A stretch of DNA of 64,000 bases from Dokdonia sinensis (GTDB lineage Bacteria > Bacteroidota > Bacteroidia > Flavobacteriales > Flavobacteriaceae): the NCBI RefSeq assembly GCF_003688895.1, contig NZ_REFV01000011.1:62001-126000 (forward strand), written 5' to 3'. A program made the translations under genes and the position numbers. Below the pieces are notes generated by a model, which was not told the DNA's origin, made no database searches, and saw only the letters and a list, made by a program, of their open reading frames with translations. Positions 4,110 to 53,500 of the stretch are shown here, piece after piece (the first letter of the stretch is position 1; every line of letters begins with the position of its first letter).

Positions 4110-4125
4110 CGCTTTCGCGAAAGCG
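4110..4125. repeat. Highly iterated palindrome, copy 1 (intergenic)
   Basis: Perfect 16-base palindrome CGCTTTCGCGAAAGCG between two divergent genes. It is one of 13 copies of core CTTTCGCGAAAG in the window and one of only two outside genes. Confidence 0.95.
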
Positions 4126-4146
4126 TAATTTTTATATCCTTAATCG

Positions 4147-4154
4147 TATTTTTG
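4147..4154 (+). promoter_or_regulatory. Possible -7 promoter element (TATTTTTG)
   Basis: TATTTTTG fits TAnnTTTG and ends 21 bases upstream of the ATG at 4176. No TTG is seen at the expected upstream distance. Confidence 0.4.
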
Positions 4155-4175
4155 AAACCTCTAAAATAGGTAAAA

Positions 4176-4364
4176 ATGTTCAGTACGGGTCAATGGGTAT
4201 TTGTAGTCTTCTTTATCGTGGCATTTGTCGCGATTATCATCTTTTCATACCGAAAAGATGCAAACCTTCACCGTAAAAACTATAAAGGCAGTAAGTGGGT
4301 TCTCTTAGGTTTCTTAGGGTTTATAGCACTTCTTGTCTTTTTGAAATTTATCCTAAAGCACTAG
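4176..4364 (+). CDS. Small two-pass membrane protein
   Basis: The product has 62 residues with two hydrophobic segments (about residues 7-24 and 42-58) separated by a basic loop (Y-R-K-D-A-N-L-H-R-K-N-Y-K-G-S-K). This gives an inner-membrane hairpin with the loop probably in the cytoplasm. It has its own -7-like box. I do not recognise a functional family. It stands alone between the palindrome and the start of the signalling locus. Confidence 0.65.
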   Translation: MFSTGQWVFVVFFIVAFVAIIIFSYRKDANLHRKNYKGSKWVLLGFLGFIALLVFLKFILKH

Positions 4365-4444
4365 TACGATTGTAGTGTTATCGAGGCAGTTCGTCTATTT
4401 TATTTTTATTACTTGTAAAAAAAGGATAATTTATCTGTGCAATA

Positions 4445-4460
4445 TACCCAGTATTGGGTA
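4445..4460. promoter_or_regulatory. NarL-like operator upstream of the peptidase operon
   Basis: TACCCAG-TA-TTGGGTA is a 7-2-7 inverted repeat of heptamers close to the NarL consensus TACYYMT. It ends 35 bases before the ATG at 4496. The right half and its flank (ATTGGGTATGGTGT) are identical to the site at 9253-9268. The likely binder is the NarL-type regulator encoded at 8177-8809; that is inference. Confidence 0.65.
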
Positions 4461-4495
4461 TGGTGTATATTAGCATAAATGCCCATTTTTGAAAT

Positions 4496-5650: not shown

Positions 5651-5664
5651 ATAACTTAAATATT

Positions 5665-8180: not shown

Positions 8181-8809
8181 TCACAATAGTAATAGGCGAA
8201 GATCATCAAGCAATTATAGACGGCATGGTACTGCTGCTCCAATATGATAAGAACATCAGTATTATAGATACTGCAAATGATGGTAAAGCCCTGCTTGATA
8301 TTGTGCTACAAAAAAGGCCCGACGTGGTAATTACGGATATCAGAATGCCCGTTATGGACGGAATTGCAGTCACTCGCGCTATTAAAGAGCAATTACCTAA
8401 CACTAAGATTGTTGCATTCTCAATGTTTGATCAAGATGATGCTTTTCTCCAAATGCACGAGGCAGGCGTATCAGGATATATTTTAAAAAACAGTCCTCTA
8501 GAAGAGGTGCGTAAAGCAGTCATAGCGGTCCATGCTGGAAAGGAGTATTATGATAGCGGTATAGACGAACGTTTATATGATAACGCTTTCGCGAAAGCAA
8601 AAACAACAAAATCAGTACTCTCAAAAAGTGAACGAGAAATCCTGAACCTCATCGCCCAAAACAAAACCTCTTCAGAAATCGCCGAAATAAGGTTTACGGC
8701 AGTCTCTACTGTCGAAAAACACCGCAAAAATATGATTCGAAAACTGGGCCTAAGCGGCAAAGGAGAACTTCTAAAATATGCCATCCAGCGCAAATACGAA
8801 TTCAACTAA
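8177..8809 (+). CDS. NarL/FixJ-family response regulator
   Basis: The protein has 210 residues. The receiver domain (1-120) has the acidic pair E8-D9, phosphoacceptor D54 in V-V-I-T-D-I-R-M-P and K104. The C-terminal LuxR-type helix-turn-helix (about 145-205) contains L-S-K-S-E-R-E-I-L and S-T-V-E-K-H-R-K-N. The start overlaps the kinase stop (ATGA), indicating a cognate pair. The inter-domain linker N-A-F-A-K-A-K is encoded by a copy of the iterated palindrome (8585-8598). Four nearby 7-2-7 sites of NarL type are its most likely targets, which would make the system autoregulated. A terminator that itself resembles the operator follows 15 bases after the stop. Confidence 0.92.
   Translation: MITIVIGEDHQAIIDGMVLLLQYDKNISIIDTANDGKALLDIVLQKRPDVVITDIRMPVMDGIAVTRAIKEQLPNTKIVAFSMFDQDDAFLQMHEAGVSGYILKNSPLEEVRKAVIAVHAGKEYYDSGIDERLYDNAFAKAKTTKSVLSKSEREILNLIAQNKTSSEIAEIRFTAVSTVEKHRKNMIRKLGLSGKGELLKYAIQRKYEFN
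8585..8598. repeat. Highly iterated palindrome, copy 2 (in response-regulator linker)
   Basis: GCTTTCGCGAAAGC, read in frame as A-F-A-K-A. It falls in the flexible linker between the receiver and DNA-binding domains. Confidence 0.95.
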
Positions 8810-8820
8810 ACAGTAATTAT

Positions 8821-8847
8821 AAAATACCCATTTTCGGGTATTTTTTT
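8821..8847 (+). terminator. Terminator with operator-like core (TACCCAT-TT-TCGGGTA)
   Basis: AAAATACCC / GGGTATTTT form a 9-base stem around ATTTTC, followed by a T-run: a good intrinsic terminator for the kinase-regulator operon. The core at 8825-8840 is also a 7-2-7 repeat related to the operators at 4445, 9253 and 10778, and it lies 34 bases upstream of the next gene. Dual use is possible. Confidence 0.75.
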
Positions 8848-8874
8848 GCCTTCTCCCCGTAAGTATCTTGCGGT

Positions 8875-9246: not shown

Positions 9247-9252
9247 TAACAA

Positions 9253-9268: not shown

Positions 9269-9317
9269 TGGTGTTGCCTCCATTCATCCTATACATTAGC
9301 AATCCAAACTTAACTTT

Positions 9318-10619: not shown

Positions 10620-10649
10620 AGATTGTTTGTTTATTTCTTGTTTAGCCGG

Positions 10650-11478: not shown

Positions 11479-11486
11479 TAGCGTTT

Positions 11487-11554: not shown

Positions 11555-12829
11555 TTACATCTTAAATAAAGGCTTCCCTCCCATCATAGTATTTACTTCT
11601 TGAGCCACATTCTCGAGAACTTCTTCATTATCGTGATGCTCAATCGCCTTGTCTATAAAGTTTGCGATGGTTAGCATATCATCTTCTTTAAGTCCACGTG
11701 TTGTCACAGCAGAAGTTCCTATACGGATTCCTGAAGTTACAAAAGGTGACCTATCGTCAAAGGGCACCATATTTTTATTTACCGTAATATCTGCTTTTCC
11801 TAAGGCTTCTTCGGCAGCTTTTCCTGTTACGTTTTTATTGCGCAGGTCTATAAGCATCATATGATTATCAGTCCCGCCAGAAATAATATCGTAACCTTTC
11901 AAGATTAGTGCATCTGCAAGAATCGACGCATTCTTCTTAACCTGAACCATATAATGTAGGAACTCGTCTGTAAGTGCCTCCCCAAAAGCAATTGCCTTTG
12001 CTGCAATGATATGCTCTAGTGGTCCACCTTGATTTCCTGGGAAAATCCCGCTGTCTAATAAAGAAGACATCATCCTGAGGTTTCCGTTCTTTAATTTGAT
12101 TCCGAAAGGGTTCTCAAAATCTTTACCCATTAGTATCATTCCGCCACGAGGGCCTCTTAATGTTTTGTGTGTCGTTGTCGTTACCACGTGACAATGTGGT
12201 AGTGGGTCTGCGATGATTCCTTTGGCAATAAGACCGGCTGGATGGGCCATATCTGCAAGGAGGATGGCGCCTACTTTGTCTGCAATTTCGCGAAAGCGGG
12301 CATAATCAATCTCACGAGAGTATGCAGAGGCACCTGCAATGATCATTTTTGGTTTTTCGCGCAAAGCGATTTCTTCTATTTTATCGTAATCTAGTCTTCC
12401 AGTAGCTTCCTCTACGCCATAAAATACCGGGTTGTAAAGGCGTCCAGAAAAGTTTACTGGTGATCCGTGCGTTAAGTGACCACCGTGTGATAAGTCAAAA
12501 CCTAAAAAGGTGTCTCCAGGCTTTAAACACGCGTGAAAAACAGCTGTATTAGCTTGTGAACCAGAATGTGGCTGTACGTTTGCATATTCGGCACCAAAAA
12601 GCTCTTTTGCGCGCTCGATAGCAATAGTCTCGACCTCATCTACTACCTCACAACCGCCATAATAGCGTTTTCCAGGGTAACCTTCGGCATATTTATTTGT
12701 GAGTACAGAGCCTGCCGCTTCCATCACTTGGTCGCTTACAAAATTCTCCGAAGCTATTAATTCTAGTCCGTTGAGCTGTCTCTGGTGTTCTTCTTTAATA
12801 AGGTCAAAAATGGCAGTATCGCGTTGCAT
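11555..12829 (-). CDS. glyA: Serine hydroxymethyltransferase
   Basis: The protein has 424 residues (E. coli GlyA 417), starting [18 protein letters not shown]. The frame is open further upstream, but those 63 residues match nothing and would collide with the fahA promoter. Diagnostic sequences are [20 protein letters not shown] and [16 protein letters not shown], which holds the PLP-binding lysine. It interconverts serine and glycine while charging tetrahydrofolate with a one-carbon unit in the cytoplasm. It is divergent from fahA. The sequence coding R-F-R-E-I contains a near-match to the iterated palindrome (12286-12297). Confidence 0.97.
12286..12297. repeat. Degenerate copy of the iterated palindrome in glyA
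   Basis: TTTCGCGAAAGC: the core is intact but one arm is lost. It may be a chance match in a conserved gene or a decayed copy. Confidence 0.5.
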
Positions 12830-14501: not shown

Positions 14502-16697
14502 TTAATTTGCCACTTCACTCATAAACTTAATGCGATATAGACGTAATTCTTCATCATCATAATCACCATCAAATTCTTCTAAGGCCGCTTCAATCTTGTC
14601 TGTTTCGGCTTCCATAAAGTACTCGTGAAGCTCCTCTTGCTGGTCTTCGTCTAATAGATCATCTATCCAATAATCAATATTAAGCTTTGTACCACTAAAG
14701 ACAATAGCCTCCATTTCCTTTATGAAATCATTCATATCCTTCCCTTTTGCAGCGGCGATATCATCTAATGGTAATTTTCTATCTACGTTTTGAATGATAT
14801 ATAGTTTTAAACCACTATTTGCCCCAGTACTTTTTACTACTAGATCATCAGGTCTGACAATATCATTCTCCTCTACGTACTGAGTAATTAATTTTAAAAA
14901 TGGTTTTCCATATTTTTTTGCCTTGCCATCGCCTACCCCGTGTACAGAGCCTAGCTCCTCTAGCGTGATAGGATATTTAATTGCCATATCATTAAGCGAT
15001 GGATCCTGAAATATTACAAATGGAGGCACGTCGAGTTTCTTTGCCTCTTTCTTGCGCAAGTCTTTCAGTAACGCAATAAGTTGTTTATCTGTCTCGGCAA
15101 TTCCTTTTGAGGAAACTATGGTGTTGTCTGTGTTTTCGTCAAAAATGTGGTCATCTGCCATCATAAAAGACTCAGGATTTTTAATAAAATTATGACCCTT
15201 GTCTGTCAGCTTTACAACACCGTAGGTTTCTATATCTTTTCTTATAAACCCAGCGACAATAGCTTGACGCAGTAGAGCGTGCCAGTAAGCTTTATCTCTG
15301 GCACTTCCTGAACCGAAAAAGGGTTGTTCGTGCGTTTTATGTGAGCTAATGATAGCATTTTCTTTTCCTAACATTGTAAAAACAATGTCCTTACTCTTAT
15401 AAATTTCATTAGTCCCTTGCACTACCTTTAAAAGTGATAACAATTCATCTTGAGCCTCGTGTTTTTTCTTAGGGAAGCGCATATTATCATCTAGCATCCC
15501 TCCTTCTCCAGTCTCATTGTCATAATGCTCTCCAAAGTAATGAAGGATAAATTTTCTTCTAGAAATACTTGTCTCGCAATACGCGACTACTTCTTGAAGG
15601 AGGGCGTGCCCAATTTCTTGTTCGGCAATAGGCTTGCCACTCATAAATTTCTCGAGTTTCTCAATATCCTTGTAGGCATAAAATGCAAGGCAATGCCCTT
15701 CTCCTCCATCTCTTCCCGCTCTTCCGGTCTCCTGATAGTAACTCTCGATACTCTTAGGAATATCGTGGTGTATGACAAACCGTACGTCTGGTTTATCTAT
15801 TCCCATACCAAAAGCAATAGTTGCTACAACCACGTCCACATCTTCCATCAGAAATTCATCTTGATGGCGCACACGCGTTTTTGCATCGAGTCCTGCGTGA
15901 TAAGGCACCGCTTTAAGTCCGTTTACCTGCAACGTTTGTGCAAGCTCTTCTACTCGCTTGCGCGAAAGACAATAAATAATCCCACTCTTCCCCTCGTTCT
16001 GTTTTACAAACCGAATGATATCTGAATCTACATCCTTAGTCTTAGGACGAATCTCATAATACAGATTAGGTCTATTAAAGGAGGCTTTAAATGTATTTGC
16101 GTTCTGAATACCAAGGTTCTTAAGAATATCTTCTTGTACCTTAGGTGTTGCTGTTGCAGTAACAGCTATAATTGGGATAGAATCATCTATACGTTTTATA
16201 ATGCTACGCAGATTTCGGTATTCTGGCCTGAAGTCGTGCCCCCACTCTGAGATACAATGCGCTTCATCTATAGCAAGGAAAGATATTTTAACCGAGCGTA
16301 AAAACTCAGCATTTTCTTCTTTTGTTAAGGATTCTGGCGCTACATAAAGTAATTTTGTTACACCACTAGTTATATCCTCCTTTACGGTTTTGATTTCATT
16401 TTTAGTAAGTGAGGAGTTGAGCACGTGAGCAATCCCGTGATCTTCGGAAATACCGCGTATAGCATCTACCTGATTTTTCATCAGGGCAATGAGTGGCGAA
16501 ACCACAATAGCCGTGCCTTCTGCAATCAACGCTGGTAACTGATAACACAGCGATTTACCACCTCCAGTAGGCATAATCACAAAAGTGTTATGACCTCCTA
16601 CGATACTTCTAATCACTTCTTCTTGCAGCCCTTTAAACTGACTGAATCCAAAGTATTTTTTTAATGATTTGTGTAAGTCTAATTCTTCTGAACTCAT
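14502..16697 (-). CDS. recQ: ATP-dependent DNA helicase RecQ
   Basis: This 731-residue helicase has Walker A P-T-G-G-G-K-S (43-49), a DEAH box followed by C-I-S-E-W-G-H-D-F-R-P, and the helicase C-terminal block with F-G-M-G-I-D-K-P-D-V-R and Q-E-T-G-R-A-G-R-D-G. A RecQ zinc/winged-helix region follows, then an HRDC domain near residues 530-600 (L-R-K-K-E-A-K-K-L-D-V-P-P-F-V-I-F). About 130 further acidic C-terminal residues continue past HRDC. It unwinds DNA 3'-5' in recombination and fork repair. It is divergent from tatC. Confidence 0.95.
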   Translation of the reverse strand: MSSEELDLHKSLKKYFGFSQFKGLQEEVIRSIVGGHNTFVIMPTGGGKSLCYQLPALIAEGTAIVVSPLIALMKNQVDAIRGISEDHGIAHVLNSSLTKNEIKTVKEDITSGVTKLLYVAPESLTKEENAEFLRSVKISFLAIDEAHCISEWGHDFRPEYRNLRSIIKRIDDSIPIIAVTATATPKVQEDILKNLGIQNANTFKASFNRPNLYYEIRPKTKDVDSDIIRFVKQNEGKSGIIYCLSRKRVEELAQTLQVNGLKAVPYHAGLDAKTRVRHQDEFLMEDVDVVVATIAFGMGIDKPDVRFVIHHDIPKSIESYYQETGRAGRDGGEGHCLAFYAYKDIEKLEKFMSGKPIAEQEIGHALLQEVVAYCETSISRRKFILHYFGEHYDNETGEGGMLDDNMRFPKKKHEAQDELLSLLKVVQGTNEIYKSKDIVFTMLGKENAIISSHKTHEQPFFGSGSARDKAYWHALLRQAIVAGFIRKDIETYGVVKLTDKGHNFIKNPESFMMADDHIFDENTDNTIVSSKGIAETDKQLIALLKDLRKKEAKKLDVPPFVIFQDPSLNDMAIKYPITLEELGSVHGVGDGKAKKYGKPFLKLITQYVEENDIVRPDDLVVKSTGANSGLKLYIIQNVDRKLPLDDIAAAKGKDMNDFIKEMEAIVFSGTKLNIDYWIDDLLDEDQQEELHEYFMEAETDKIEAALEEFDGDYDDEELRLYRIKFMSEVAN

Positions 16698-17777: not shown

Positions 17778-17793
17778 CGCTTTCGCGAAAGCG
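17778..17793. repeat. Highly iterated palindrome, copy 3 (intergenic)
   Basis: CGCTTTCGCGAAAGCG in the 67-base gap between tatC and the AhpD-like gene, 19 bases before the next ATG. Confidence 0.95.
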
Positions 17794-21435: not shown

Positions 21436-22461
21436 TTAGATTTTAAAGGATAACAGTTCGTTCCACTTCATTTTGATAGTTTGCCAGTCAAAACCTTCGG
21501 CAACAGTTCTAGCCCTTAATGAGATACGATGTGCAAATTCTGGTTGTGTTATCATTAATGCAATACCAGCCACGCAAGCATTAACATCACCTTTAGGAAT
21601 GAGTACTGCTGTACTGTCGTTTTCTAGCAGGTATGGAATACCGCCTACCTCTGTAGAAATTATGGGCAAACCTAAAGCCATTGCTTCTATGACGCTTACG
21701 GGTGTGTTGTCAAAATTTGTAGTATTCAAGAATATGTCACATTCAGCAGATAGTGTAATCCATTCTTTCTTAGATAATTTACCGGTAAAGGTGACGGGGA
21801 GTTTTTTCGCTTTCGCGAAAGCGAGACATTCGGCATAACTCTCATCTTTTTCGGGTCCTACCATACAAAGCGTTGCCTCTGGAAAATCCTTGAGTAATTT
21901 CTCCAGTACCTCGAGTGCCATCTTCGGGTTATAAATATGCGCAAAGGATCGTACCCACAGGAGTTTCGGAGCAACAATACTGCGTTCTTTAAAGGGATAG
22001 AGGTCTATCTCAATAGTATTTGGGATGTGTGTGATGTTTGAGAAGCCCGCTTTTACAAAAGCGTGATATAAATATTTGCTAGGTGCAATATTCATTCTCG
22101 CACCGCCAAATAGTTTCTGTGCGCTCCTTGTACTTTTAGCAAGTCGCTCAGGAAGATTCCCGCCGTGCAGTATGGGGAAATAGGGAATATGAAACGTACG
22201 GCACAACTGAGCCACGTTAACTGCATAAAAATAGTTTGTCGTGCTATACGTATCAATAAGCACGGCATCTACTCTATTTCTAAATTGAAAAACACTCCAA
22301 AGCATATCTAACAAACGCAACGCTTTGTTACGCTTGTTTGAAGTTACTACAACATCATATCCCTCTGACCTCAGCAATGTACTAAGTGTATCTATGGTAG
22401 TTACCGTAATCCCTTTATGTGATAATGCGTTTCCTACGTAGAGGAGTTTTTTTCTTTTCAT
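21436..22461 (-). CDS. Glycosyltransferase family 4
   Basis: About 341 residues, GT-B fold. The C-terminal signature D-N-T-P-V-S-V-I-E-A-M-A-L-G-L-P-I-I-S-T holds the conserved glutamates that bind the nucleotide sugar. I prefer the ATG at 22461 (MKRKKLLYVGN); an ATG three codons earlier is also possible. Either start lies inside the upstream ligase gene, so the two overlap by about 47 bases. The stretch C-L-A-F-A-K-A-K-K-L is encoded by a copy of the iterated palindrome. Donor and acceptor are unknown. Confidence 0.85.
   Translation of the reverse strand: MKRKKLLYVGNALSHKGITVTTIDTLSTLLRSEGYDVVVTSNKRNKALRLLDMLWSVFQFRNRVDAVLIDTYSTTNYFYAVNVAQLCRTFHIPYFPILHGGNLPERLAKSTRSAQKLFGGARMNIAPSKYLYHAFVKAGFSNITHIPNTIEIDLYPFKERSIVAPKLLWVRSFAHIYNPKMALEVLEKLLKDFPEATLCMVGPEKDESYAECLAFAKAKKLPVTFTGKLSKKEWITLSAECDIFLNTTNFDNTPVSVIEAMALGLPIISTEVGGIPYLLENDSTAVLIPKGDVNACVAGIALMITQPEFAHRISLRARTVAEGFDWQTIKMKWNELLSFKI
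21808..21823. repeat. Highly iterated palindrome, copy 4
   Basis: CGCTTTCGCGAAAGCG inside a GT4 gene, read as A-F-A-K-A. Confidence 0.95.
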
Positions 22462-23780: not shown

Positions 23781-24854
23781 CTAAGATATCAAAGCTTTAT
23801 ATATAGGAACCAGCTTATTTATAAAAGCTTCTTGACTATATTTTTTTTGTACGCTTTCGCGAAAGCGTAAACCTATTAATTTAAGTTCATGTTCACTCTT
23901 CTCGTATAATCCTGCAAGAGCTTCTGGCAACTCGCTAGTTACGTTATCAATAATAACTCCTTGATTTCCTACGACTTCGGCACATTGTCCAACATTTGTT
24001 ACAACAACCGGTAGACCACCATGTCCATATTCAAGTATCGAGATCGGTAACCCTTCTGAAACCGATGCAAGAACTCCTATAGCACTCTGCTTTAAAATAT
24101 TGTTTATATCGTCACAACTCCCGTATAAAAAGACATTGTTATTCAAATGATTATCAGCAATTACTCTATTTACCATCTCTGAATATTCATCATTAAATGA
24201 TTTACCTACGAGATGCAATGTCCACCCAGGGTAATGCTCTATACTTTTCTGAAAAGATTTTATGAGCTCAACGTGATTTTTCTGTGGTCGAAGATTTGCC
24301 AAGCAAACAACTCTCTTTCCATCTATTCCTTTAAGAAATGTTTTTTTCTTTGATTCTTGAGCTAAAGTTGCAAAGTTTCTTAAAAAATAGACTTCTTTTA
24401 TCTTTAATACTTCTTTAGACCAATCTGCAAGTGTTTCATTTACCGCAATTGTAGCGTCAATGTATCTTGCTAAAATTTTTAGGGTTTTATAAGGGCGATG
24501 GACTATTGCATCGCTCATCCCATAATGGTCGTGCCATACGATCTTGAGCTTTCTATTATCAATTTTTGCAAGTACGGCTAGCAAGATAGATGTAGAATGT
24601 GCATGTATGATTTCTATCTGCTCTTTCCTTACCCATTTAAAGAACTTTCGAAATGCCATAAAGTCCAACTTTCCCTTTTTCTCGAGCAAAAAGAAGTTTA
24701 CATCCTTATTTATTTCCTTTTCTAGAGCGCCTGTCCTTCTCGTTGCACATAGATAAGATATTACTGGCTCTGATGATAGCGCATTTGCAATGTTAACCGC
24801 CATACGTTCGGCACCGCCAGCATCTAGAGAATCTATGAGTTGTAGTACTTTCAC
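23781..24854 (-). CDS. Glycosyltransferase family 4
   Basis: The product has 357 residues: N-terminal D-S-L-D-A-G-G-A-E-R-M-A-V-N (acceptor domain of GT4 enzymes) and C-terminal S-E-G-L-P-I-S-I-L-E-Y-G-H-G-G-L-P. The start is GTG and forms a GTGA overlap with the upstream GT4 gene. R-F-R-E-S near the C-terminus comes from a copy of the iterated palindrome, in a position between the catalytic core and the last helix. It is probably a mannosyl-, glucosyl- or galactosyltransferase; the specificity is unknown. Confidence 0.88.
   Translation of the reverse strand: MKVLQLIDSLDAGGAERMAVNIANALSSEPVISYLCATRRTGALEKEINKDVNFFLLEKKGKLDFMAFRKFFKWVRKEQIEIIHAHSTSILLAVLAKIDNRKLKIVWHDHYGMSDAIVHRPYKTLKILARYIDATIAVNETLADWSKEVLKIKEVYFLRNFATLAQESKKKTFLKGIDGKRVVCLANLRPQKNHVELIKSFQKSIEHYPGWTLHLVGKSFNDEYSEMVNRVIADNHLNNNVFLYGSCDDINNILKQSAIGVLASVSEGLPISILEYGHGGLPVVVTNVGQCAEVVGNQGVIIDNVTSELPEALAGLYEKSEHELKLIGLRFRESVQKKYSQEAFINKLVPIYKALIS
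23851..23868. repeat. Highly iterated palindrome, copy 5
   Basis: ACGCTTTCGCGAAAGCGT, 18-base perfect palindrome inside a GT4 gene, read as R-F-R-E-S. Confidence 0.95.
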
Positions 24855-26508: not shown

Positions 26509-27507
26509 TTATTTCGGTTTGCTTAAAAGTAGGCTAAAAAGACCAACCGTACGACCTAAAAATTCGGTAAGTGCTTCCTGACGGTCTGGGGTTGTTATCA
26601 CATTAAGCAATCGGATTCCTATAAGTATGCTACTAATTGCATACCATTTAAAAATGTTTTTAACGCCAGGTTTAGGATGCATCACTCTCCACACATACCA
26701 ACCGTTACGTGTGACCATTCTGCCGTACTTGAATTTATTAGGTCTCCCTGACGGATCGTGATGATGTTCTAAATTTGCCCCAGTATGGATGTATAAAGGT
26801 CCTAGTTTTGATATTCTGAAAGTATAATCTGCATCTTCATAAAGTCCGTAGCCCTCAAAATATTCTGAAAACTTATGTTCCTTAAGTATATGAAGCGGAA
26901 AACTGGAAACTCCACCCATAAGTTGCCTCACCTCATAGACTTTACCAGATGGTGGCAAAAAACTAGTGGAGCGCCCGTGACCAAATTTCGGCAAAATACC
27001 CGGAGGTTTATTAGAATCTAACCCTAATTTACGACGCAACTTAAACCGGCTTCCCTCTTTCCTTCTGTAGCCATCATAATAAAAATGATGAAGGTCATTC
27101 GGAATTTCTTGCTCGACCTTTTCCCATTGCACCTCATTATCGATATAACCACCTACTCCCAAGGCATCAGGAAATTTCTGATAAACTTCTAAAATATTTT
27201 CAAAATAGGTAGTTTTCAAAATTGTATCATCATCTAGAAAAAAAACTATATCTACATCATTCTGAACTTTTTCTATCCCCCAGTTGCGCTGTTTTGTTAA
27301 GCCCCTATGGTCTGGCGGCACCTTATGGTATTTTAAGTTTTTTATTCCGCTTTCGCGAAAGCGGAACCCAGTTTCATCATCAGTACTTCCGTCTATGACT
27401 AAAATCTCATCTGGATATACCGTCTGTCTCTGCACGGAAGCCAAAAGCGTTGCTAATGGTTCCGGACGCATATAGGTACAAATAATGAGTGAAATTTTCT
27501 TATTCAT
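26509..27507 (-). CDS. Glycosyltransferase family 2
   Basis: The protein has 332 residues. The GT-A core shows I-S-L-I-I-C-T-Y-M-R-P, L-V-I-D-G-S-T-D-D and the metal-binding F-F-L-D-D-D-T. A later E-D-A-D-Y-T-F-R segment is usual for the catalytic base region. Hydrophobic residues at about 285-305 may touch the membrane. The start overlaps the stop of the next upstream gene by eight bases. R-F-R-E-S at about residue 50 comes from a palindrome copy that extends to 22 bases. Confidence 0.88.
   Translation of the reverse strand: MNKKISLIICTYMRPEPLATLLASVQRQTVYPDEILVIDGSTDDETGFRFRESGIKNLKYHKVPPDHRGLTKQRNWGIEKVQNDVDIVFFLDDDTILKTTYFENILEVYQKFPDALGVGGYIDNEVQWEKVEQEIPNDLHHFYYDGYRRKEGSRFKLRRKLGLDSNKPPGILPKFGHGRSTSFLPPSGKVYEVRQLMGGVSSFPLHILKEHKFSEYFEGYGLYEDADYTFRISKLGPLYIHTGANLEHHHDPSGRPNKFKYGRMVTRNGWYVWRVMHPKPGVKNIFKWYAISSILIGIRLLNVITTPDRQEALTEFLGRTVGLFSLLLSKPK
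27345..27366. repeat. Highly iterated palindrome, copy 6 (longest)
   Basis: A 22-base perfect palindrome centred at 27355/27356, with CTTTCGCGAAAG extended by CCG/CGG and TT/AA arms. It lies inside a GT2 gene and reads F-R-F-R-E-S-G. Confidence 0.95.
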
Positions 27508-35639: not shown

Positions 35640-37045
35640 TATAAGTTATAGGTAATTTCATTTATCCCCTCCCAAATCCGCTCACTAGCCTTTTCTGGTT
35701 GCTCTGGTTTATTTACAATCCCAAACCATTCTTTAGTAACCGGGACAGGGTTCAAGGTTCCGTTAAGTAGACCTTTGATTCCGTCGTAAATCTCATTTTT
35801 ATTTAATGCCCAAGTGACGCTTTTATCATAATCTGGCATTGATCTAAAATGAACGTACTTATAATTTTGACCTATATCGCGTATTCCCTTTTTGAGCTGT
35901 GGCTGCTCATAGTTTGGGTAAATAGTGGGTTTGTCGTGAGCTACAAAATCAAAGACCATACTGGAACAGATATTCACCACGAGCTCACAATGATGACAAG
36001 TGTTAACCAGTAATGCAAAATCCTCTTTAGTAGGCATTACTTGATTCCACTGCGAACCCATCGGTTTCCATAATGGGTCTATGGCGGTAATGACATCTTT
36101 GTACGTTTCCAGCACCGCATCATACCTTCCGGAAAAGTCTATAGGCACCTTACGATAGATAATAGCTACATCTTCCCCTTCATCGCGAAGCTTTCTTACG
36201 GCCACGGCAGTGTCTTCTAAATAATATTGATCTAAAGGTGATGTCGTTTGATCATCTCCAGAAAAGCAAATGTATCTTGTTTCCTCATTAAGGTTATGCT
36301 GCTTACAGAATTGCTTTCGCGAAAGCAATAAACTCCCATCATAATGTGGTTCAAACTGTGGCGTACCCGTAACAAAAATCTGCTCCGCTCTCGTTTTGGG
36401 ATAATACTGAAGCAATTGATCTTTCATCAAGTCTGACCAAACAAAGTAGTAGTCAGTTTCAATCGTCGTCATCCCCTTGGGAAGATTGTCCCAACTATAA
36501 ATCCAGCAAGCGGTCTTGATGCCAAGATCCTGCGCTGCCAGAATGGGCGCTATGGCCTGTGTTGCACGCTGTGTGGTACAAAAAACGAGGTCTGGACGGT
36601 GTTCTTCTAATTGTTCTTTAAGTTCTTGATAGCGCTCTGTAGATCGCTCTGCCGCTTGCATTTGATCCATCAACCTTTGCCAACCTTTTGGCGTAGCACT
36701 AAATCTTTCGTGATATTTGACAAAGGCACTTTTGGCGGCTTTCTTAACACTATTCCACTGTAGCGGAAATCTGTAAGTGGGGTAGACATTGTCGTTTTCC
36801 CGCTTTCGCGAAAGCGCAAGTTCCACCCTTTTTCTTGCGTGACTTAGTGTAGGCGTTTTAGGATGAATCTTAGTGTTTTTTATAACCACCTCCTTGTAAC
36901 CCAATTCTTTCTCTAGAGAGAAGATGGTATTGTTCCAGTAGGTAATGTCAAAACCTTTCTCCTCACCTATTTCCTTGAATTTTGTGAACGCAAAATTGCG
37001 CAGGCCTACGCCGTCTGGGAAGAGAATAAAAACCTTTTTAGCCAT
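35639..37045 (-). CDS. Probable GT-B glycosyltransferase next to NulO genes
   Basis: This 468-residue protein opens with V-F-I-L-F-P-D-G-V-G-L-R-N. Two Rossmann-like halves are suggested by P-D-L-V-F-C-T-T-Q-R-A and I-F-V-T-G-T-P-Q-F-E, the latter like the second-domain start of CDP-glycerol or UDP-sugar transferases. I cannot place it in a numbered family. Its position directly after the NeuB-like gene makes a transferase for the CMP-activated nonulosonic acid attractive, but I see no conventional sialyltransferase motif. Two palindrome copies lie inside, both read as L-S-R-K. Confidence 0.6.
   Translation of the reverse strand: MAKKVFILFPDGVGLRNFAFTKFKEIGEEKGFDITYWNNTIFSLEKELGYKEVVIKNTKIHPKTPTLSHARKRVELALSRKRENDNVYPTYRFPLQWNSVKKAAKSAFVKYHERFSATPKGWQRLMDQMQAAERSTERYQELKEQLEEHRPDLVFCTTQRATQAIAPILAAQDLGIKTACWIYSWDNLPKGMTTIETDYYFVWSDLMKDQLLQYYPKTRAEQIFVTGTPQFEPHYDGSLLLSRKQFCKQHNLNEETRYICFSGDDQTTSPLDQYYLEDTAVAVRKLRDEGEDVAIIYRKVPIDFSGRYDAVLETYKDVITAIDPLWKPMGSQWNQVMPTKEDFALLVNTCHHCELVVNICSSMVFDFVAHDKPTIYPNYEQPQLKKGIRDIGQNYKYVHFRSMPDYDKSVTWALNKNEIYDGIKGLLNGTLNPVPVTKEWFGIVNKPEQPEKASERIWEGINEITYNL
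36311..36328. repeat. Highly iterated palindrome, copy 8
   Basis: TTGCTTTCGCGAAAGCAA, 18-base perfect palindrome, read as L-L-S-R-K. Confidence 0.95.
36801..36816. repeat. Highly iterated palindrome, copy 9
   Basis: CGCTTTCGCGAAAGCG, the second copy in the same gene, 490 bases from copy 8, read as A-L-S-R-K. Confidence 0.95.
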
Positions 37046-39365: not shown

Positions 39366-40244
39366 TTAGTACTTTACGGGAGCAAGTTTATTCTTAGCAT
39401 CAATTGTTTTTTGAGAAACTGTAATCCTGTACTTTAATGTGCTGGGCAACTTAAATAGTGTAGAAAAAACGACTTGTGAGAATGATTTAAAATACTTCAA
39501 ATCTGTAAGCGCATATTTCCTAAAATTATGCAGGAGCGCTTTTAAAATCTTAAGTAAGGGTTTAGGATAGTAAACGATATAAAATTTAAGTGTATTCTGA
39601 AGTTGATGCTCAAATCTAAAGTAATTTCTGCCTGTGGCTTTTCTCTTTTCCACATCCACTCGATGGTTTACTTGAATATCATAGCAGTAAAGAATGTCGT
39701 ACCCAGCATCCAAAACCTCAATAGCCACGGCAGATTCTTCTCCGTAAATATCCATCCATAGCGGAAAACCATTGGTTTCCTCGTATACGGTCTTCTTTAT
39801 GGCAAATCCACAACCCACAAAATCATTAGTTAGATAGTTTGTAGCACTTTTAGCCTGCGCACGAGCTTCTGTGTCTGTTGCAAACAGACCACGCACTTCC
39901 TGAAAAGCTAGAATTCCGAGGTTTTTGCTTTCGCGAAAGCGTACTTCTACTTCTTCAATAAAATTAAGACTTAGGGGATGTGCATCGTCATCCAGTCCTA
40001 TAAAAATAGTTCCCTGCGCATTTTTATAAAGCGCGTTACGTGCAGGTGAGGCGCTTATACTCGCGTCTAACTTGCTCCAATGCACCCAATCGTACTCCGG
40101 AATTAAAGGTTCTGTCTTCTCACAGCCGTCTATAAAAACCCGTACTTCGTGACGCTCGTGATCCATCATTACCTTGAGGACATCAAGTGTAGTCCTCAAA
40201 TCTGCCGGTCGGTTTCTCGTTACGATTAGGAAGGAAATATCCAT
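39366..40244 (-). CDS. Glycosyltransferase family 2
   Basis: The product has 292 residues: GT-A core with I-S-F-L-I-V-T-R-N-R-P-A-D-L and metal site F-I-G-L-D-D-D-A-H-P. The E-E-S-A-V-A-I-E-V segment replaces the common E-D-x-D. R-F-R-E-S at about residue 103 is palindrome-encoded. It shares one base with the upstream GT4 stop and lies after the gap that separates it from the NulO genes. The acceptor is unknown. Confidence 0.85.
   Translation of the reverse strand: MDISFLIVTRNRPADLRTTLDVLKVMMDHERHEVRVFIDGCEKTEPLIPEYDWVHWSKLDASISASPARNALYKNAQGTIFIGLDDDAHPLSLNFIEEVEVRFRESKNLGILAFQEVRGLFATDTEARAQAKSATNYLTNDFVGCGFAIKKTVYEETNGFPLWMDIYGEESAVAIEVLDAGYDILYCYDIQVNHRVDVEKRKATGRNYFRFEHQLQNTLKFYIVYYPKPLLKILKALLHNFRKYALTDLKYFKSFSQVVFSTLFKLPSTLKYRITVSQKTIDAKNKLAPVKY
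39927..39940. repeat. Highly iterated palindrome, copy 10
   Basis: GCTTTCGCGAAAGC in a GT2 gene, read as R-F-R-E-S. Confidence 0.95.
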
Positions 40245-41395
40245 TACGATGAATGATTATAGACGTTTTTGTATAAATCGATTATCTGAGGTCGTAAGAT
40301 ACTTCTATTATAATTTTTGAGAATGAATTGCGTATTGAAGTCTTGAGCATTTTTTCTAAGCGACTCGTCAGTAATTGCTTTCTCGATGAGACCAGCAATT
40401 TCTTCTACGTCCAGCGGATTGTGTATGAGCAATCCGTTCTTCCCGTCTTGAATGACCTCCTCTGTCACCTTTCCAGGATTGGACTGGATGGGAAATGCGC
40501 CCATTCCCATAGCTTCGAGCAAGGCATTGGGCATCCCGTCAGAAAGGCTGTTTGCAACGTGAATACTACTGCTCCCCATAAGTTCCAGAAGCGTGGTGTT
40601 TTTGACAAAAGAATTTCTCGCAAATACTTTTGAAATGAGATCTGATAGCCTTTGCGAATTTCTGATCTGTTCCTCAACACTTCGATCTACACTATATAAA
40701 ACGATATCATAAGTATTAAAATAGTTCTTGTCCACTAACTCAAGTGCTTGCAGGACCACAGATGCTTTACCTACGCCATCGTCATACCCTTTGATGAGAA
40801 TGGTATTTCTTTCGGTGGTAGATTTAATGTGTGCGGGATCGAGGTCAAGGCCTCCATTGCCCGGAAATACTCCTAGAAATTTACCCTTAAATCCGTTTTC
40901 TTGAGCAATAGTCTGGTCTCTTTTACAATCTGTAATAAGGTAATTTGCCCTTTTTAGAAAATTTGAAACTTCTTGCTTAGTAAGTCCTAATCGTTTAAAG
41001 TCATAGATGTCGCTTCCCCAAGAGGAGTAAATCAAAGGAACCTCAACTTCTTGAAGCACAGAAAGAATTGGGATTCCTGCGAGTTGCATTTCAAAGCAAT
41101 GTATGATGTCGGGTTGTATGTTTTGGTACGCTTTCGCGAAAGCGTTTACAACATCATTCTCATTGCGCTCTTGGAGCTTCTTATATAGGTTAGGTAATTT
41201 ACTCTTGATGCTTGACCGCAAAGGAAAATCCCAGCGTAGTTTCCACCCTTTTATTTGGGTGACCCAAGGGATTTTAGAAGAAGGTGGTCCGCCATCTGTA
41301 ATGTCAAACCAAAACACCTCGTGCCCCGAATGCTCCAACTGGTTAACCCATTGAAAAAAGTGGTGGTTTGGTATGGCAACGGTTAGGATTTTCAA
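40244..41395 (-). CDS. Glycosyltransferase family 4
   Basis: The protein has 383 residues, starting with TTG (MKILTVAIPNHH) in a TTGA overlap with the upstream gene. GT-B marks are I-I-H-C-F-E-M-Q-L-A-G, S-S-W-G-S-D-I-Y and the C-terminal S-D-G-M-P-N-A-L-L-E-A-M-G-M-G. A-F-A-K-A at about residue 84 is palindrome-encoded. Confidence 0.87.
   Translation of the reverse strand: MKILTVAIPNHHFFQWVNQLEHSGHEVFWFDITDGGPPSSKIPWVTQIKGWKLRWDFPLRSSIKSKLPNLYKKLQERNENDVVNAFAKAYQNIQPDIIHCFEMQLAGIPILSVLQEVEVPLIYSSWGSDIYDFKRLGLTKQEVSNFLKRANYLITDCKRDQTIAQENGFKGKFLGVFPGNGGLDLDPAHIKSTTERNTILIKGYDDGVGKASVVLQALELVDKNYFNTYDIVLYSVDRSVEEQIRNSQRLSDLISKVFARNSFVKNTTLLELMGSSSIHVANSLSDGMPNALLEAMGMGAFPIQSNPGKVTEEVIQDGKNGLLIHNPLDVEEIAGLIEKAITDESLRKNAQDFNTQFILKNYNRSILRPQIIDLYKNVYNHSS
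41128..41145. repeat. Highly iterated palindrome, copy 11
   Basis: ACGCTTTCGCGAAAGCGT, 18-base perfect palindrome in a GT4 gene, read as A-F-A-K-A. Confidence 0.95.
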
Positions 41396-42567
41396 GAAAG
41401 TAAATTTCTATAAGATTGATTAAATTTTTCTATATCAAAATGATTGAGCGCGTAGTTTCTTGCGTTTTCAGCTAAGGCTAGTCTTTTAATATCGTTTGTG
41501 ATTAAATCACTCAAATTTTCTACAAAACTATCAATTATCTCAAGTTCTATTGATTCACCTACAAGAATACCATTCTCTTGATGACGTATATGCTCAGAAA
41601 TCCCACCTACATCTGTGCATACGGGTATCACTCCGTGAGGCATTGCCTCCATAAGAACCATAGGAAAACCCTCGGTGCTAGAACAAATTATAATTAAATC
41701 TAATTCCTTGTAAAACTTTGAAAGGTCTGAGATTGTTGTAATCTCACCTACATAATTCACTCCCGCTTCTTGTATACGACTTTTCTCTCCTTTCATTCCA
41801 GAACCCGCCATCTTAAAATGGGTGCCAGTAAACTTTAATTTTATTTTTTTTGCAATTTCAAGAAATATCCACGGTCTTTTCTCATCAGACCATCGTCCGA
41901 TAAAACCAACGTTTAATACCTCAGAAACTGGTTTGATTGAAAGGTCTTGAATATTTGATAGATCAACTCCATTTGAAATGATACGTATTTTATCTGGTGA
42001 GGCAATTATATTGTTCTCCCTATATATATTCAATACGTCTTCTTTGGCTTTTCTGTTGATGACCACTCGGGTATCGATATACTTAGCGGAGCTTGCTAAA
42101 GTTGATATTCTAGAATCATTAGGTGCTATGGCGTGTATTAAGTCTATACGCTGTTTTGAAGTATTAATTAATGATAAAATATCATAAAAATAAGTGCTGT
42201 TACAGCCAAAAACGTGTGTTACCGTTTTACTCCCATTGATTGCTTTTGCAATGGTGTTGAAAAGTGCCTTTCGAACTCTATTACTTTTCTTGTTGATAAT
42301 ACTATTAAGCTCAATAATGGTTGCGCTTTCGCGAAAGTGAGGTAAGTAATGATCTGTTGCCGAAAGATGGGTAAAAATAACCGTCACTTCTTTATGAGAA
42401 ACAGCCTTTACAATATCGAGATGAACCTGCTCTGCTCCACCTAAATGGTAGTAAGGGAATATAAAGATAATGTCTGATTTACTTATAATAAACGATTTGA
42501 AATACCGAAATATGAATAGATAAATCCAGCCTAAACAATACTTTACAAACCGCTTTAACCTATTCAT
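41392..42567 (-). CDS. Glycosyltransferase family 4 with N-terminal hydrophobic segment
   Basis: The product has 391 residues. A hydrophobic stretch (about 8-24) could anchor it. Y-Y-H-L-G-G-A-E-Q-V-H-L-D-I is the glycine loop, and S-T-E-G-F-P-M-V-L-M-E-A-M-P-H-G the donor site. F-R-E-S at about residue 76 is palindrome-encoded. The start overlaps the GT2 stop (ATGA). Confidence 0.87.
   Translation of the reverse strand: MNRLKRFVKYCLGWIYLFIFRYFKSFIISKSDIIFIFPYYHLGGAEQVHLDIVKAVSHKEVTVIFTHLSATDHYLPHFRESATIIELNSIINKKSNRVRKALFNTIAKAINGSKTVTHVFGCNSTYFYDILSLINTSKQRIDLIHAIAPNDSRISTLASSAKYIDTRVVINRKAKEDVLNIYRENNIIASPDKIRIISNGVDLSNIQDLSIKPVSEVLNVGFIGRWSDEKRPWIFLEIAKKIKLKFTGTHFKMAGSGMKGEKSRIQEAGVNYVGEITTISDLSKFYKELDLIIICSSTEGFPMVLMEAMPHGVIPVCTDVGGISEHIRHQENGILVGESIELEIIDSFVENLSDLITNDIKRLALAENARNYALNHFDIEKFNQSYRNLLS
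42326..42337. repeat. Highly iterated palindrome, copy 12
   Basis: CTTTCGCGAAAG, minimal 12-base core, read as H-F-R-E-S. It is the last copy before an 11-kb stretch without any. Confidence 0.9.
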
Positions 42568-50688: not shown

Positions 50689-50762
50689 ATACGAATGTAG
50701 GAAATTAAAAGGCCGAAGAAAAAAAGTAAGTCCATTTACTTATTACAATTTAAATGTAAATT

Positions 50763-51611
50763 CTAATTAAACCACTGTCGTTTTCTTTCCAAAATCCAAC
50801 CAAGAAAAGCGATAACGGCATTGAGGATTTTTAGAAAAAAAGCGTTTGTTACAACGATATTTAATTTGTCATTTACCTGTGACCAGACACTATCTATCTT
50901 CATTTGCTTTTCTAAGACATTATCAAAGGTCTCATCATACAAGTCAAAATGTTCTTTGAGCACCTGCTTACGCTCTGCTTTATGAAGCTCCGTGTTTTCA
51001 GGTGTCGTAGAGACTCCACCTTCATAAAAAGTAGAAATTACCATATCCACTTTAGCTTGCGACACCTTTGCTTCACATAATACTTTTATAAAAAATGCCC
51101 AGTCAGAAACAATTTTTAAATCAGTTCTATAGTTTCCGTAAGTTTCAAAAAGTGATCTCTTTATAAAAGTTGCACCGTGCCCTAGAGAAGTTCTCTTAAA
51201 AAATGAGAAATCTACGCATCCCGGATAGGTATTTGTAAAACTATATCCATCCTCTTTCACTATCCGTAAATTACCGTATACAATAGCAGTACCCGTCTGT
51301 AATGATTTACAAACTTGAGACAAGGCTCCCGCATTAAAGAGCGTATCTCCGCTATTTATAAAAAGAATATATTCACCCGTAGCTCTTTCGATTCCCTTAT
51401 TCATGGCATCATAAATACCGTTGTCCGGCTCGCTTACCCAATTTAAAAATTTACCTTGTGAGGTTTCGAGAAGTTCCTTACTCCCATCGGTAGAGCCTCC
51501 GTCTATGACTATATGTTCATAGTCGTCAAAATCCTGACACTGTACACTTTCTAGTGTTTTGATAAGACCACGGACATCGTTATAATTTACTGTAATGATG
51601 GATATGAGCAT
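50763..51611 (-). CDS. Glycosyltransferase family 2 (WcaA/EpsE-like subgroup)
   Basis: 282 residues: L-I-S-I-I-T-V-N-Y-N-D, H-I-V-I-D-G-G-S-T-D-G-S, E-P-D-N-G-I-Y-D-A-M-N-K-G and F-I-N-S-G-D. This D-G-G-S / N-S-G-D signature marks a defined GT2 subgroup common in colanic-acid-like loci. It is transcribed away from the FkbM gene, so a promoter should lie in 51612-51729. Confidence 0.88.
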   Translation of the reverse strand: MLISIITVNYNDVRGLIKTLESVQCQDFDDYEHIVIDGGSTDGSKELLETSQGKFLNWVSEPDNGIYDAMNKGIERATGEYILFINSGDTLFNAGALSQVCKSLQTGTAIVYGNLRIVKEDGYSFTNTYPGCVDFSFFKRTSLGHGATFIKRSLFETYGNYRTDLKIVSDWAFFIKVLCEAKVSQAKVDMVISTFYEGGVSTTPENTELHKAERKQVLKEHFDLYDETFDNVLEKQMKIDSVWSQVNDKLNIVVTNAFFLKILNAVIAFLGWILERKRQWFN

Positions 51612-51729
51612 TTTTTTACTTTTGGGTTACTAAACTACCTATATTGGGACAAAGTAATTCATTATGCGGATGAAAGTCAAATTAACGTACCTTTAAAAAG
51701 TAAAAAATCATTAGAAACCCACGAGTGCG

Positions 51730-52536
51730 ATGATACGAAAGTTTATTAAAAAGATGATTAAAAAGTGTATGCACCCTCATAACTTTTATTTGAGCGCAGT
51801 CACGCCTACTCACGTAGTTTCTGATTTTATTAAAGACTTTCGCCCCTATACCACAAACCAAGCACTTATAAGACTAGGAGCTTCTGGCGACGGAGGATAT
51901 CTTGTTCCAGATGATTTAGAAAATATAGCAGCATGCTTCTCACCAGGAGTAGATCGCGTTTCTGAATTTGAACAGGATTGTTTGGGCAAAAATATGAAAA
52001 TCTTTATGGCAGATGCCTCTGTAGACTTCCCTACTATTAATCTAGAGCCAGAAAAGTTTTCTTTTATTAAAAAGCACATTGGAGTCTTAAATAATGACCG
52101 ATTCATTACTATGGACAAGTGGATCAGTGACTCAAAAGTTGATAAAGATGCTGACCTGTTATTGCAAATGGACATAGAAGGTGCAGAATATGCTGCTCTA
52201 ACAAATATTAGTGCTGAAAATTTAAAGCGGTTTAGAATTATTGTGATCGAAGCTCACGGGTTAGACCACTTATGGGACACTGTTGCATTTGAGCACATAA
52301 GCACCCCTCTATATAGAATACTCGAGACCCACTATTGTGTTCATATCCACCCCAACAATGTTGGTGGCGCACTTACCCTAAATAATATAACAATCCCGAG
52401 ACTTTTAGAATTTACCTTTTTAAGAAAGGATAGAGTAACTACAAAAACATTGAGTAAAGAATTTCCACATGCACTGGATGCTCAAAACACTATGGCACCC
52501 CCTCTCGATTTACCTAAAAGATGGTACGACTCCTGA
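51730..52536 (+). CDS. FkbM-type methyltransferase, sole plus-strand gene of the locus
   Basis: The product has 268 residues. L-L-Q-M-D-I-E-G-A-E-Y is the FkbM-family signature, and A-S-G-D-G-G-Y-L-V-P and C-F-S-P-G-V-D precede it at the cofactor-binding region. The family O-methylates sugars and other small acceptors. The N-terminus is very basic (M-I-R-K-F-I-K-K-M-I-K-K-C) with no membrane segment. It is oriented against about 40 other genes, with both flanks intergenic, so it has its own promoter and may be a separate acquisition. Confidence 0.8.
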   Translation: MIRKFIKKMIKKCMHPHNFYLSAVTPTHVVSDFIKDFRPYTTNQALIRLGASGDGGYLVPDDLENIAACFSPGVDRVSEFEQDCLGKNMKIFMADASVDFPTINLEPEKFSFIKKHIGVLNNDRFITMDKWISDSKVDKDADLLLQMDIEGAEYAALTNISAENLKRFRIIVIEAHGLDHLWDTVAFEHISTPLYRILETHYCVHIHPNNVGGALTLNNITIPRLLEFTFLRKDRVTTKTLSKEFPHALDAQNTMAPPLDLPKRWYDS

Positions 52537-52603
52537 AACCTAAAGCTGTAGAATTAACTTTCTGATCAATTTTCAATTTTTATTTGATAAGTCTATAATT
52601 TTT

Positions 52604-52628
52604 ATCCTCTAGGAAAGGTGAAGAGGAT
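52604..52628. repeat. Small hairpin between the FkbM and GT2 genes
   Basis: ATCCTCT / AGAGGAT with an 11-base loop, touching the stop codon of the minus-strand GT2 gene. No T-run follows on either strand in the right place, so termination is doubtful. Confidence 0.3.
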
Positions 52629-53500
52629 CATTTAATACGAAGAGATCGTTTCAGTTTTTTCCACAACTTACCTAAAAAATAATGTCTATAAAGAATGACT
52701 TTTTGATTGTAAGGATGTAAATGCCAAAAAATATGCTTTCCCAAAGATTTTTCCAGATCGAAAATATCATTCACCGCATTTCTTAAATTAACAGCACTTG
52801 CTTGTTCCTCGTGTACTCGAAAAGATATTAATGTTTCATCTATGAAAGCAATATCTCCGTAATTCATTAGCCTATACCAATATTCGATATCCAATGCTTG
52901 TTTAAGCTCAGTATTAAAAGGACCTGTACGAAGCATAATATCTCTTTTAAGTAACGTAGCTGGTGGCTCACCTATTTTATTAACAGGTACTCCTAAGAGG
53001 TTTTTATTCTTTAAAAGTTCTCTTCCCTTATATACCTGATTAGGTTCGATTCTAATATTATGCCAATGAGTGTGCAATGATTTGTATTTTTCTACCCAAT
53101 CCACATCCCTTGGATTTGCTGTATCATAAATAAAGTGACGTTTGCAATACACCATAGCTATGTTTGTATCACTTAATGCAAGGCGAACCATTTTTTCTGT
53201 ACAATCTGAGCGCAAAACGTCATCCTGAAAGAGAAATTTAATATACTTTCCATTCGCCTTTTCAACAGTATTATTCCAGTTTGCTCCAATTCCAAGAGGC
53301 TCGTGACTATATATATAAACAGGAAAGGATACGCTTTCGCGAAAGCGTTCTAATATCTCCATCGTACAGTCGCTACTTTGATCATCACTAATGACCACTT
53401 CAATATTTTTGTAAGTTTGATTTTTAACGGAAGTTAGTGCTTCCTCGAGATAAAGCGCTCCATTGTATGTAGGAATGCAAATAGAAACTAAAGGATCCAT
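52628..53500 (-). CDS. Glycosyltransferase family 2
   Basis: 290 residues: V-S-I-C-I-P-T-Y-N-G, V-V-I-S-D-D-Q-S-S-D-C-T and F-L-F-Q-D-D-V. It carries the only palindrome copy in the 42.4-64 kb half, at residues reading E-R-F-R-E-S. It lies 6 bases after the upstream GT2 gene. Confidence 0.87.
   Translation of the reverse strand: MDPLVSICIPTYNGALYLEEALTSVKNQTYKNIEVVISDDQSSDCTMEILERFRESVSFPVYIYSHEPLGIGANWNNTVEKANGKYIKFLFQDDVLRSDCTEKMVRLALSDTNIAMVYCKRHFIYDTANPRDVDWVEKYKSLHTHWHNIRIEPNQVYKGRELLKNKNLLGVPVNKIGEPPATLLKRDIMLRTGPFNTELKQALDIEYWYRLMNYGDIAFIDETLISFRVHEEQASAVNLRNAVNDIFDLEKSLGKHIFWHLHPYNQKVILYRHYFLGKLWKKLKRSLRIK
53331..53348. repeat. Highly iterated palindrome, copy 13
   Basis: ACGCTTTCGCGAAAGCGT, 18-base perfect palindrome in a GT2 gene, read as R-F-R-E-S; isolated from all other copies. 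Confidence 0.95.

Follow-up and report, generated by a model that had tools for sequence, protein, structure and literature searches.

A highly iterated palindrome with strand-biased arms in Dokdonia sinensis and other Flavobacteriaceae

Background

A stretch of 64 kb from the genome of Dokdonia sinensis (Flavobacteriaceae), referred to here as the window, contains 13 perfect copies of the 12-base palindrome CTTTCGCGAAAG, lying both within and between genes. What kind of element this is, and what keeps it in place, is the question addressed here. An initial annotation of the window had likened it to the cyanobacterial highly iterated palindrome HIP1, or to a DNA uptake, chromosome-organising or methylation site. 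In this study, we show that the element is kept by selection or biased transfer at about 900 copies per chromosome, and describe strand-biased arms with a period near three bases on either side of its core. No earlier report of CTTTCGCGAAAG, and no flavobacterial, Dokdonia or Nonlabens report of the motif as a palindrome or uptake signal, was found in the literature searched, which left subscription papers mostly outside. The papers that do contain the shorter core TTTCGCGAAA concern other subjects, judging by their titles and the openings of their abstracts.

Results

All 13 perfect cores were found at the positions first given for them, except that the one placed at 36313 starts at 36314. 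Twelve of them are extended as perfect palindromes of 14-22 bp, as had been said of most, and the site at 42326 is palindromic over 12 bp only. The window has a G+C content of 36.3%; when up to two mismatches were allowed it gave 19 matches against 2.86 expected, a number reached by none of 100 dinucleotide shuffles. The initial annotation had judged such abundance far from chance, and the genome-wide count against a Markov model bore this out. CTTTCGCGAAAG occurs 917 times in the 3.65-Mb D. sinensis genome (G000), where the reversed-word control occurs twice, and 58 times in a 224-kb sample of that genome, where the Markov expectation was 0.013-0.018. Near-misses were rarer than perfect sites in the same sample (12 with one mismatch against 58).

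In a family sample of 298 genomes, hundreds of copies were present in G000, G010, G241 and G190, the last being the single carrier genome of genus g191; all others held 0-21. Every genome searched in g1, the genus of the window, carried the motif (18/18, 383-937 copies), as did every genome searched in g11 (23/23, 297-879 copies). Among the genera of the family sample the motif is all-or-none, being confined to g1, g11 and one g191 genome. TTTCGCGAAA was likewise enriched in these three genera only, with 0-34 copies per genome elsewhere, usually below the reversed control, which rules out dialects of the core in other genera. Samples of 20-54 kb from 11 non-carrier genera revealed no other 10- or 12-mer palindrome with at least three copies, CTTTCGCGAAAG sites in stretches selected for holding them excepted. 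Copy number varies little with genome size: the Spearman coefficient was 0.44 (p 0.14) for 13 g1 genomes with a completeness of 90% or more (mean 815 copies; g1 genomes span 2.9-5.5 Mb) and 0.24 (p 0.31) for 20 g11 genomes (mean 658).

Among the matches listed in a scan of named genomes, multi-site loci were seen only in Dokdonia, in Nonlabens (including strain BBFL7, which we take to be a Nonlabens) and in one Aquimarina island. For proteins of the Dokdonia-named loci the median identity was 83% with g1 (6 proteins) and 47.5% with g11 (4); for those of the Nonlabens-named loci it was 64% with g11 (10 proteins) and 50% with g1 (16). From these identities we infer that g1 is Dokdonia and g11 Nonlabens. 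When mapped on an rpoB tree of 30 genomes, carriage of the motif requires two changes that well-supported branches make unavoidable, one for g11 by itself and one for g1 together with g191. Its presence in two lineages implies that the system was either transferred or lost in relatives. The second group also includes G144, which has 13 sites and is the non-carrier nearest Dokdonia and G190 in the tree. It holds 34 copies of TTTCGCGAAA against 21 of the reversed control, a slight excess that is a possible relic of a lost system.

The window was aligned with five relatives at 70-72% DNA identity. The whole 12-mer was kept in 20 of 29 site comparisons, which are not independent as the same sites recur across relatives, and in 190 of 6739 comparisons of control 12-mers. 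At 94% DNA identity, 11 of 12 alignable sites were intact. Where sites fell on conserved residues, synonymous codons were identical in 17/19, 17/17, 11/13, 18/19 and 30/30 instances in five comparisons with partly shared sites, against 0.48-0.56 elsewhere for the same set of amino acids. Constraint from the protein sequence alone, which the initial annotation had named as a way in which conservation might be fully explained, is ruled out by this difference.

In 21 printed cases the site was missing from an aligned relative. Fourteen of these differ by 1-3 substitutions, for example GCTTTTGTAAAAGC; such sites therefore arise or decay in place. Two others have 5 or 7 differences, and in five there is an alignment gap in the site, which does not separate insertion from drift. 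The preponderance of substitutions in these ortholog alignments makes a mobile repeat unlikely.

The core is CGCTTTCGCGAAAGCG, tending to TACGCTTTCGCGAAAGCGTA. Core and arms were profiled first in 274 de-duplicated sites and later in 405, and each set includes a few chance sites from unrelated organisms. Reading outward from the 16-bp core on either side, the sequence is G-poor from about +10 to +30 and normal again by about +40, the frequency of G dropping, in each of g1 and g11, from 0.176-0.183 to 0.087-0.092. The arms, of about 20 bp each, are thus strand-biased, with a G/T-rich 5' side and a G-poor 3' side. Moreover, A peaks at +11, +14, +17 and +20 in both genera.

A codon origin of this period is ruled out for non-coding sites: at 72 strictly non-coding sites, with stops in all six frames, the phase excess of A was 0.117 (z 5.8), and the far control at positions 37-60 of the same sites showed no effect (z -0.3). 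Fourier analysis of A at 109 intergenic sites gave a best period of 3.2, matched by 0.2% (1/500) of position shuffles. No clear left-right covariation was seen beyond position 9; the arms are therefore a per-strand composition and not a longer inverted repeat. A longer hairpin is ruled out by the same result and by a folding energy of -6.8, similar to the -6.3 to -6.8 of three permuted palindromes. In viral contigs, 43 sites from AT-rich records gave a weaker skew and a period signal (z 3.7), and 53 sites from contigs with a G+C fraction of at least 0.50, taken as chance matches, showed neither.

Placement was scored on genes that our own simple script predicted in 464 kb of DNA from carriers, two edge sites being dropped. 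Of 113 placed sites, 74 (65%) lie in genes and 39 in gaps, and 88.5% of the DNA is coding. Site density was 0.67/kb in tandem gaps (22 in 33.0 kb), 1.04/kb in divergent gaps (12 in 11.5 kb), 0.94/kb in convergent gaps (5 in 5.3 kb) and about 0.18/kb in genes, that is, about four times higher between genes than within them; the overall density is about one site per 4 kb. There is no strong preference for gene orientation. The in-gene frame read as AFAKA is preferred (47/74 sites), a preference that codon third positions at +11, +14, +17 and +20 may explain. An intrinsic terminator is ruled out, since convergent gaps are not preferred, 74 of the sites are in genes and there is no T-run; a promoter element is ruled out by gene context. 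The earlier description of sites with neither a T-run nor a fixed position agrees with this context. In the window, 11 of the 13 sites are inside genes and two in gaps, as predicted with our own script. These sites, with two near-sites of one mismatch each, are as follows.

4112..4123: core CTTTCGCGAAAG in a divergent gap, perfectly palindromic over 16 bp
8586..8597: core within a gene on the + strand, read as AFAKA, palindromic over 14 bp
12285..12296: near-site ATTTCGCGAAAG; one mismatch
15957..15968: near-site CTTGCGCGAAAG; one mismatch
17780..17791: core in a tandem gap, palindromic over 16 bp
21810..21821: core within a gene on the - strand, read as AFAKA, palindromic over 18 bp
23854..23865: core within a gene on the - strand, read as RFRES, palindromic over 20 bp
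27350..27361: core within a gene on the - strand, read as RFRES, palindromic over 22 bp
28610..28621: core within a gene on the - strand, read as LSRK, palindromic over 14 bp
36314..36325: core within a gene on the - strand, read as LSRK, palindromic over 20 bp; two substitutions in aligned G321
36803..36814: core within a gene on the - strand, read as LSRK, palindromic over 16 bp
39928..39939: core within a gene on the - strand, read as RFRES, palindromic over 14 bp; one substitution in aligned G319
41131..41142: core within a gene on the - strand, read as AFAKA, palindromic over 18 bp; three substitutions in aligned G321
42326..42337: core within a gene on the - strand, read as HFRES, palindromic over no more than 12 bp
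53334..53345: core within a gene on the - strand, read as RFRES, palindromic over 18 bp

The window also contains a perfect 7-bp tandem repeat, TAGTGTC, at 19859-19913 (7.9 copies); its unit is not a multiple of three and could switch the reading frame if it lies within a gene.

Sites are evenly spaced and exclude one another over about 1.5 kb. Observed over expected pairs were 0.14, 0.22, 0.55 and 0.89 at 0-0.5, 0.5-1, 1-1.5 and 1.5-2 kb, and about 1 thereafter, as measured on the first 94-100 sites listed for three genomes. Seven long site-free gaps were fetched, three of which hold the shorter core TTTCGCGAAA, and three were read by eye. The gap in G319 (L403) is filled by a single open frame of 5060 residues (1225-16407) with many near-identical repeats, resembling a giant adhesin. 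That in the Nonlabens genome G298 (L400) has pilus and RHS-like genes, a T2SSE ATPase and a secretin being confirmed by Pfam, and the third, in G000, has ordinary metabolic genes. The G298 locus (L400, 105-6298) is of a pseudopilus type, by eye also with a pilin-like and a prepilin peptidase-like protein and accessory genes.

Additionally, sites were found in DNA that appears to have moved. Small clusters occur in several non-carrier genomes, and five records (G101, G214, G078, G087 and Aquimarina L047) share a pair of sites with a spacing of 933 bp, a recurrence which suggests spread from Dokdonia- or Nonlabens-like donors. In the Aquimarina record (L047, 115-1332 and downstream) both sites, read as AFAKAQ, are in a TolC-like efflux gene beside a multicopper-oxidase-like gene (by eye), and the locus looks like a copper-resistance island. 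In view of these clusters and recurrent islands, the site probably marks DNA that came from carriers. One IMG/VR contig with phage-type frames, as judged by eye, has three sites in 11.3 kb. The lytic Nonlabens phage P12024S (L406, 35.7 kb) has neither the site nor TCGCGA, which possibly reflects avoidance by a lytic phage, a weak indication from a single record. A search of phage and plasmid collections with a 42-nt consensus-like query gave no flavobacterial match, and two Mycobacterium prophage records matched over 17 bases (E value 8).

Candidate partner proteins were then compared with the distribution of the motif. The C5 methyltransferase family PF00145 had no match in G321, G325, G335 and G190 (4/10 carriers), and PF01555 had none at E <= 0.001 in G000, G319, G325 and G335 (4/10). 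Both are absent from G325 and G335, and a C5 or PF01555 methyltransferase is ruled out as universal partner, other methyltransferase families lying outside the search. A PF12705 protein of about 900 residues, taken for AddB, is encoded in 30/30 genomes with and without the motif, and a second, AddA-like match is found in 25/30. ParB_N gave one match in nine carriers and two in G303. In what is presumably the recognition region of chromosomal ParB, g1 and G190 are the same as several non-carriers, and the three comparable g11 rows differ at two residues; the chromosomal ParB of G303 is absent from this alignment. One parS-like site was present in the sampled G190 DNA. ParB/parS is ruled out as partner for g1 and G190, their recognition region being as in non-carriers. 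Secretin (PF00263) is patchy in the family (8/35 genomes: 3/10 carriers and 5/25 others), and is ruled out as universal partner, other pilus parts having been left unsearched.

Discussion

The symmetric element with its phased arms suggests a factor specific for this sequence, with a symmetric action and a requirement for the entire palindrome, which would read a single strand of each arm in steps of about three bases; another site nearer than about 1.5 kb would bring it no benefit. The palindrome is probably the docking place of a dimeric DNA-binding protein. The docked dimer could plausibly seed an oligomer symmetrically outward, at about three nucleotides per subunit on one strand, in the manner of RecA-type or DnaA-type ATPases. 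If the duplex were opened or cut at the site, the G/T-rich strand that lies 5' of it on either strand would be the 3'-ended strand. The site might then be used for bidirectional nucleation or self-recognition over a range of about 1-1.5 kb, in homologous recombination or in the transfer of DNA, the role in recombination being a guess.

Filaments of the RecA type take three nucleotides per subunit. The DnaA-trios provide a second precedent, in which a double-strand box guides an oligomer onto NAN triplets (PMC8287927). With the features of the site and these precedents in view, we tentatively favour a docking palindrome that seeds a three-base-per-subunit oligomer, for recombination or recognition of self DNA, as the foremost of several readings, each of which is less than probable. 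A wider proposal, which we put forward with still more reserve, is that of a new class of element, in which about 900 sites of bidirectional nucleation, each with a docking palindrome of 20 bp flanked by strand-biased, triplet-phased arms, would label the chromosome as self at intervals of a few kilobases for use by a RecA-like or AAA+ oligomer. Such a system would have passed between two separate flavobacterial lineages or been kept in both, and resident phages and mobile islands may copy the mark.

Several results weigh against the favoured reading. The best period is 3.2 and not exactly 3; at the 109 intergenic sites T has the same period, matched however by 8.8% of shuffles, and C and G have none. 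The period is missing at sites in the RFRES frame (z -1.6), where the codon effect is opposite. Little of the pattern is seen in the G190 arms (27 sites, z 0.9), and 13 island sites in other genera have a weaker skew and no period (z -0.1). Between species the arms are no better conserved than positions 41-100 bp away (0.825-0.850 against 0.806-0.857 in 88 conserved site comparisons); in the same comparison changes involving G were rarer in the arms (0.23 against 0.42). No cognate protein was found: by distribution, C5 and PF01555 methyltransferases and secretin do not follow the motif, and AddB-type proteins and ParB occur in its presence and in its absence; the AddB tree, made from loci cut to 572-771 residues, does not group carriers. 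A preference for biased arms is conceivable in a symmetric nucleoid protein as well.

Two close rivals of the docking and oligomer-seeding reading have to be considered. The element may be a DNA uptake signal, a palindromic counterpart of the uptake signal sequence (USS) of Haemophilus or the DNA uptake sequence (DUS) of Neisseria, with preferential uptake or transfer and recombination driving the sites to saturation. We know of no USS with strand-biased triplet arms, and their presence here counts against uptake. The part of the initial annotation that proposed an uptake site gains from the proportion of sites in genes (65%, where 88.5% of DNA is coding), which is close to the 65% in genes against about 86% coding given for the H. 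influenzae USS in PMC2346458. It gains also from gain by point substitution, as reported for USS, from the site-bearing islands in other genera and from even spacing, which Karlin claimed for USS; the claim is cited but played down in PMC1939737. The same proposal loses from the palindrome itself, USS not being palindromic, from the presence of secretin in only 3/10 carriers and 5/25 non-carriers, and from AT-rich viral contigs, whose hosts are not established, that carry sites with weaker but similar arms. On balance we consider uptake rather unlikely.

Of much the same standing, and in our view also unlikely, is a chromosome-organising site, at which an architectural protein bound about every 4 kb would structure the chromosome. 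An even spacing in which sites exclude one another at less than about 1.5 kb, perfect symmetry, the absence of a strong gene-orientation preference and a copy number that varies little with genome size (2.9-5.5 Mb in g1) would all be natural for such a site. Strand-biased three-base arms are not predicted by it, however, and the ParB recognition region of g1 and G190 is as in several non-carriers, with a parS-like site in the sampled G190 DNA. Two of the three long gaps that were read hold accessory genes, but the other holds ordinary metabolic genes.

An origin of the HIP1 type, as a by-product of methylation combined with biased mismatch repair, is very unlikely. The usual methyltransferase site is smaller than a core of 16-20 bp with arms, which counts against such an origin. 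The likeness to HIP1 drawn in the initial annotation stands as regards an iterated and maintained palindrome with a GC centre and gain by substitution. It does not extend to a cognate methyltransferase of the C5 or PF01555 families, and the methylation-site proposal is weakened accordingly, G325 and G335 having no match to either, the only families tested. The saturation within about 1 kb that the model of Elhai (2015; PMC4390886) expects is near the measured exclusion range, but the density here is about one per 4 kb and not one per kb.

Equally improbable is a Chi site for AddAB, palindromic and so active from both sides. Density (about one per 4 kb), the G/T-rich strand 5' of the site, both like E. 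coli Chi, and an AddB-type protein in every one of the 30 genomes tested would suit it, but that protein is in 30/30 genomes when the motif is in three genera only, and its tree does not unite carriers. The half-site GCGAAAGC outside palindromes was not enriched in G000 (4 against 3.8 expected); four relatives sampled gave a slight excess (4 against 1.1, 6 against 2.6, 2 against 0.3 and 1 against 0.5 expected).

Comparison with known systems

Repetitive extragenic palindromes (REP) with their RAYT proteins also number hundreds of palindromic copies. In the present case most gains and losses are substitutions and 65% of sites are inside genes, and a REP/RAYT-type mobile unit, mainly between genes, does not agree with this placement and the ortholog alignments (RAYT genes were not searched). 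The parS and Noc sites of the ParB family share a 16-bp palindrome with TTTC...GAAA half-sites. Here, in contrast, the central spacer is 2 bp and not 4, there are about 900 copies, the ParB of g1 and G190 is not visibly adapted, and a second ParB was not found in 9/10 carriers. Chi sites of AddAB and RecBCD are alike in density and in the G/T-rich strand 5' of the site, and differ from the long palindrome described here, whose half-site is not enriched alone in G000 and whose presumed partner enzyme is also present in motif-less genomes.

The module of DnaA box and DnaA-trio has a double-strand site beside NAN-type triplets on one strand, of which the A peaks at +11, +14, +17 and +20 are reminiscent. 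The present element, unlike that module, is symmetric, has about 900 copies and G-poor arms, and its core is unlike the consensus DnaA box. Haemophilus USS and Neisseria DUS resemble it in point-substitution gain, in about 65% of sites in genes (H. influenzae), in hundreds of copies and in even spacing; the palindrome, the strand-biased arms, the lack of a common secretin and the occurrence in two separate lineages set it apart. Cyanobacterial HIP1 (GCGATCGC) and the alternate HIPs are also short palindromes, hugely over-represented genome-wide and restricted to lineages. Compared with HIP1, the motif reported here has a longer core (16-20 bp), AT-rich halves, strand-biased near-three-base arms and a 1.5-kb exclusion, and no PF00145 or PF01555 methyltransferase common to the carriers.

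To our knowledge, iterated palindromes such as HIP1 still have no agreed function. The present motif offers a cleaner case than HIP1, being all-or-none between genera of one family. It is long enough for its binding protein to be identified, its internal architecture hints at a mechanism, its exclusion range is measurable, and its host genera include cultured marine strains. Additionally, the site could be used as a provenance mark for DNA that has seemingly departed from carrier lineages, such as the copper-resistance-like Aquimarina island.

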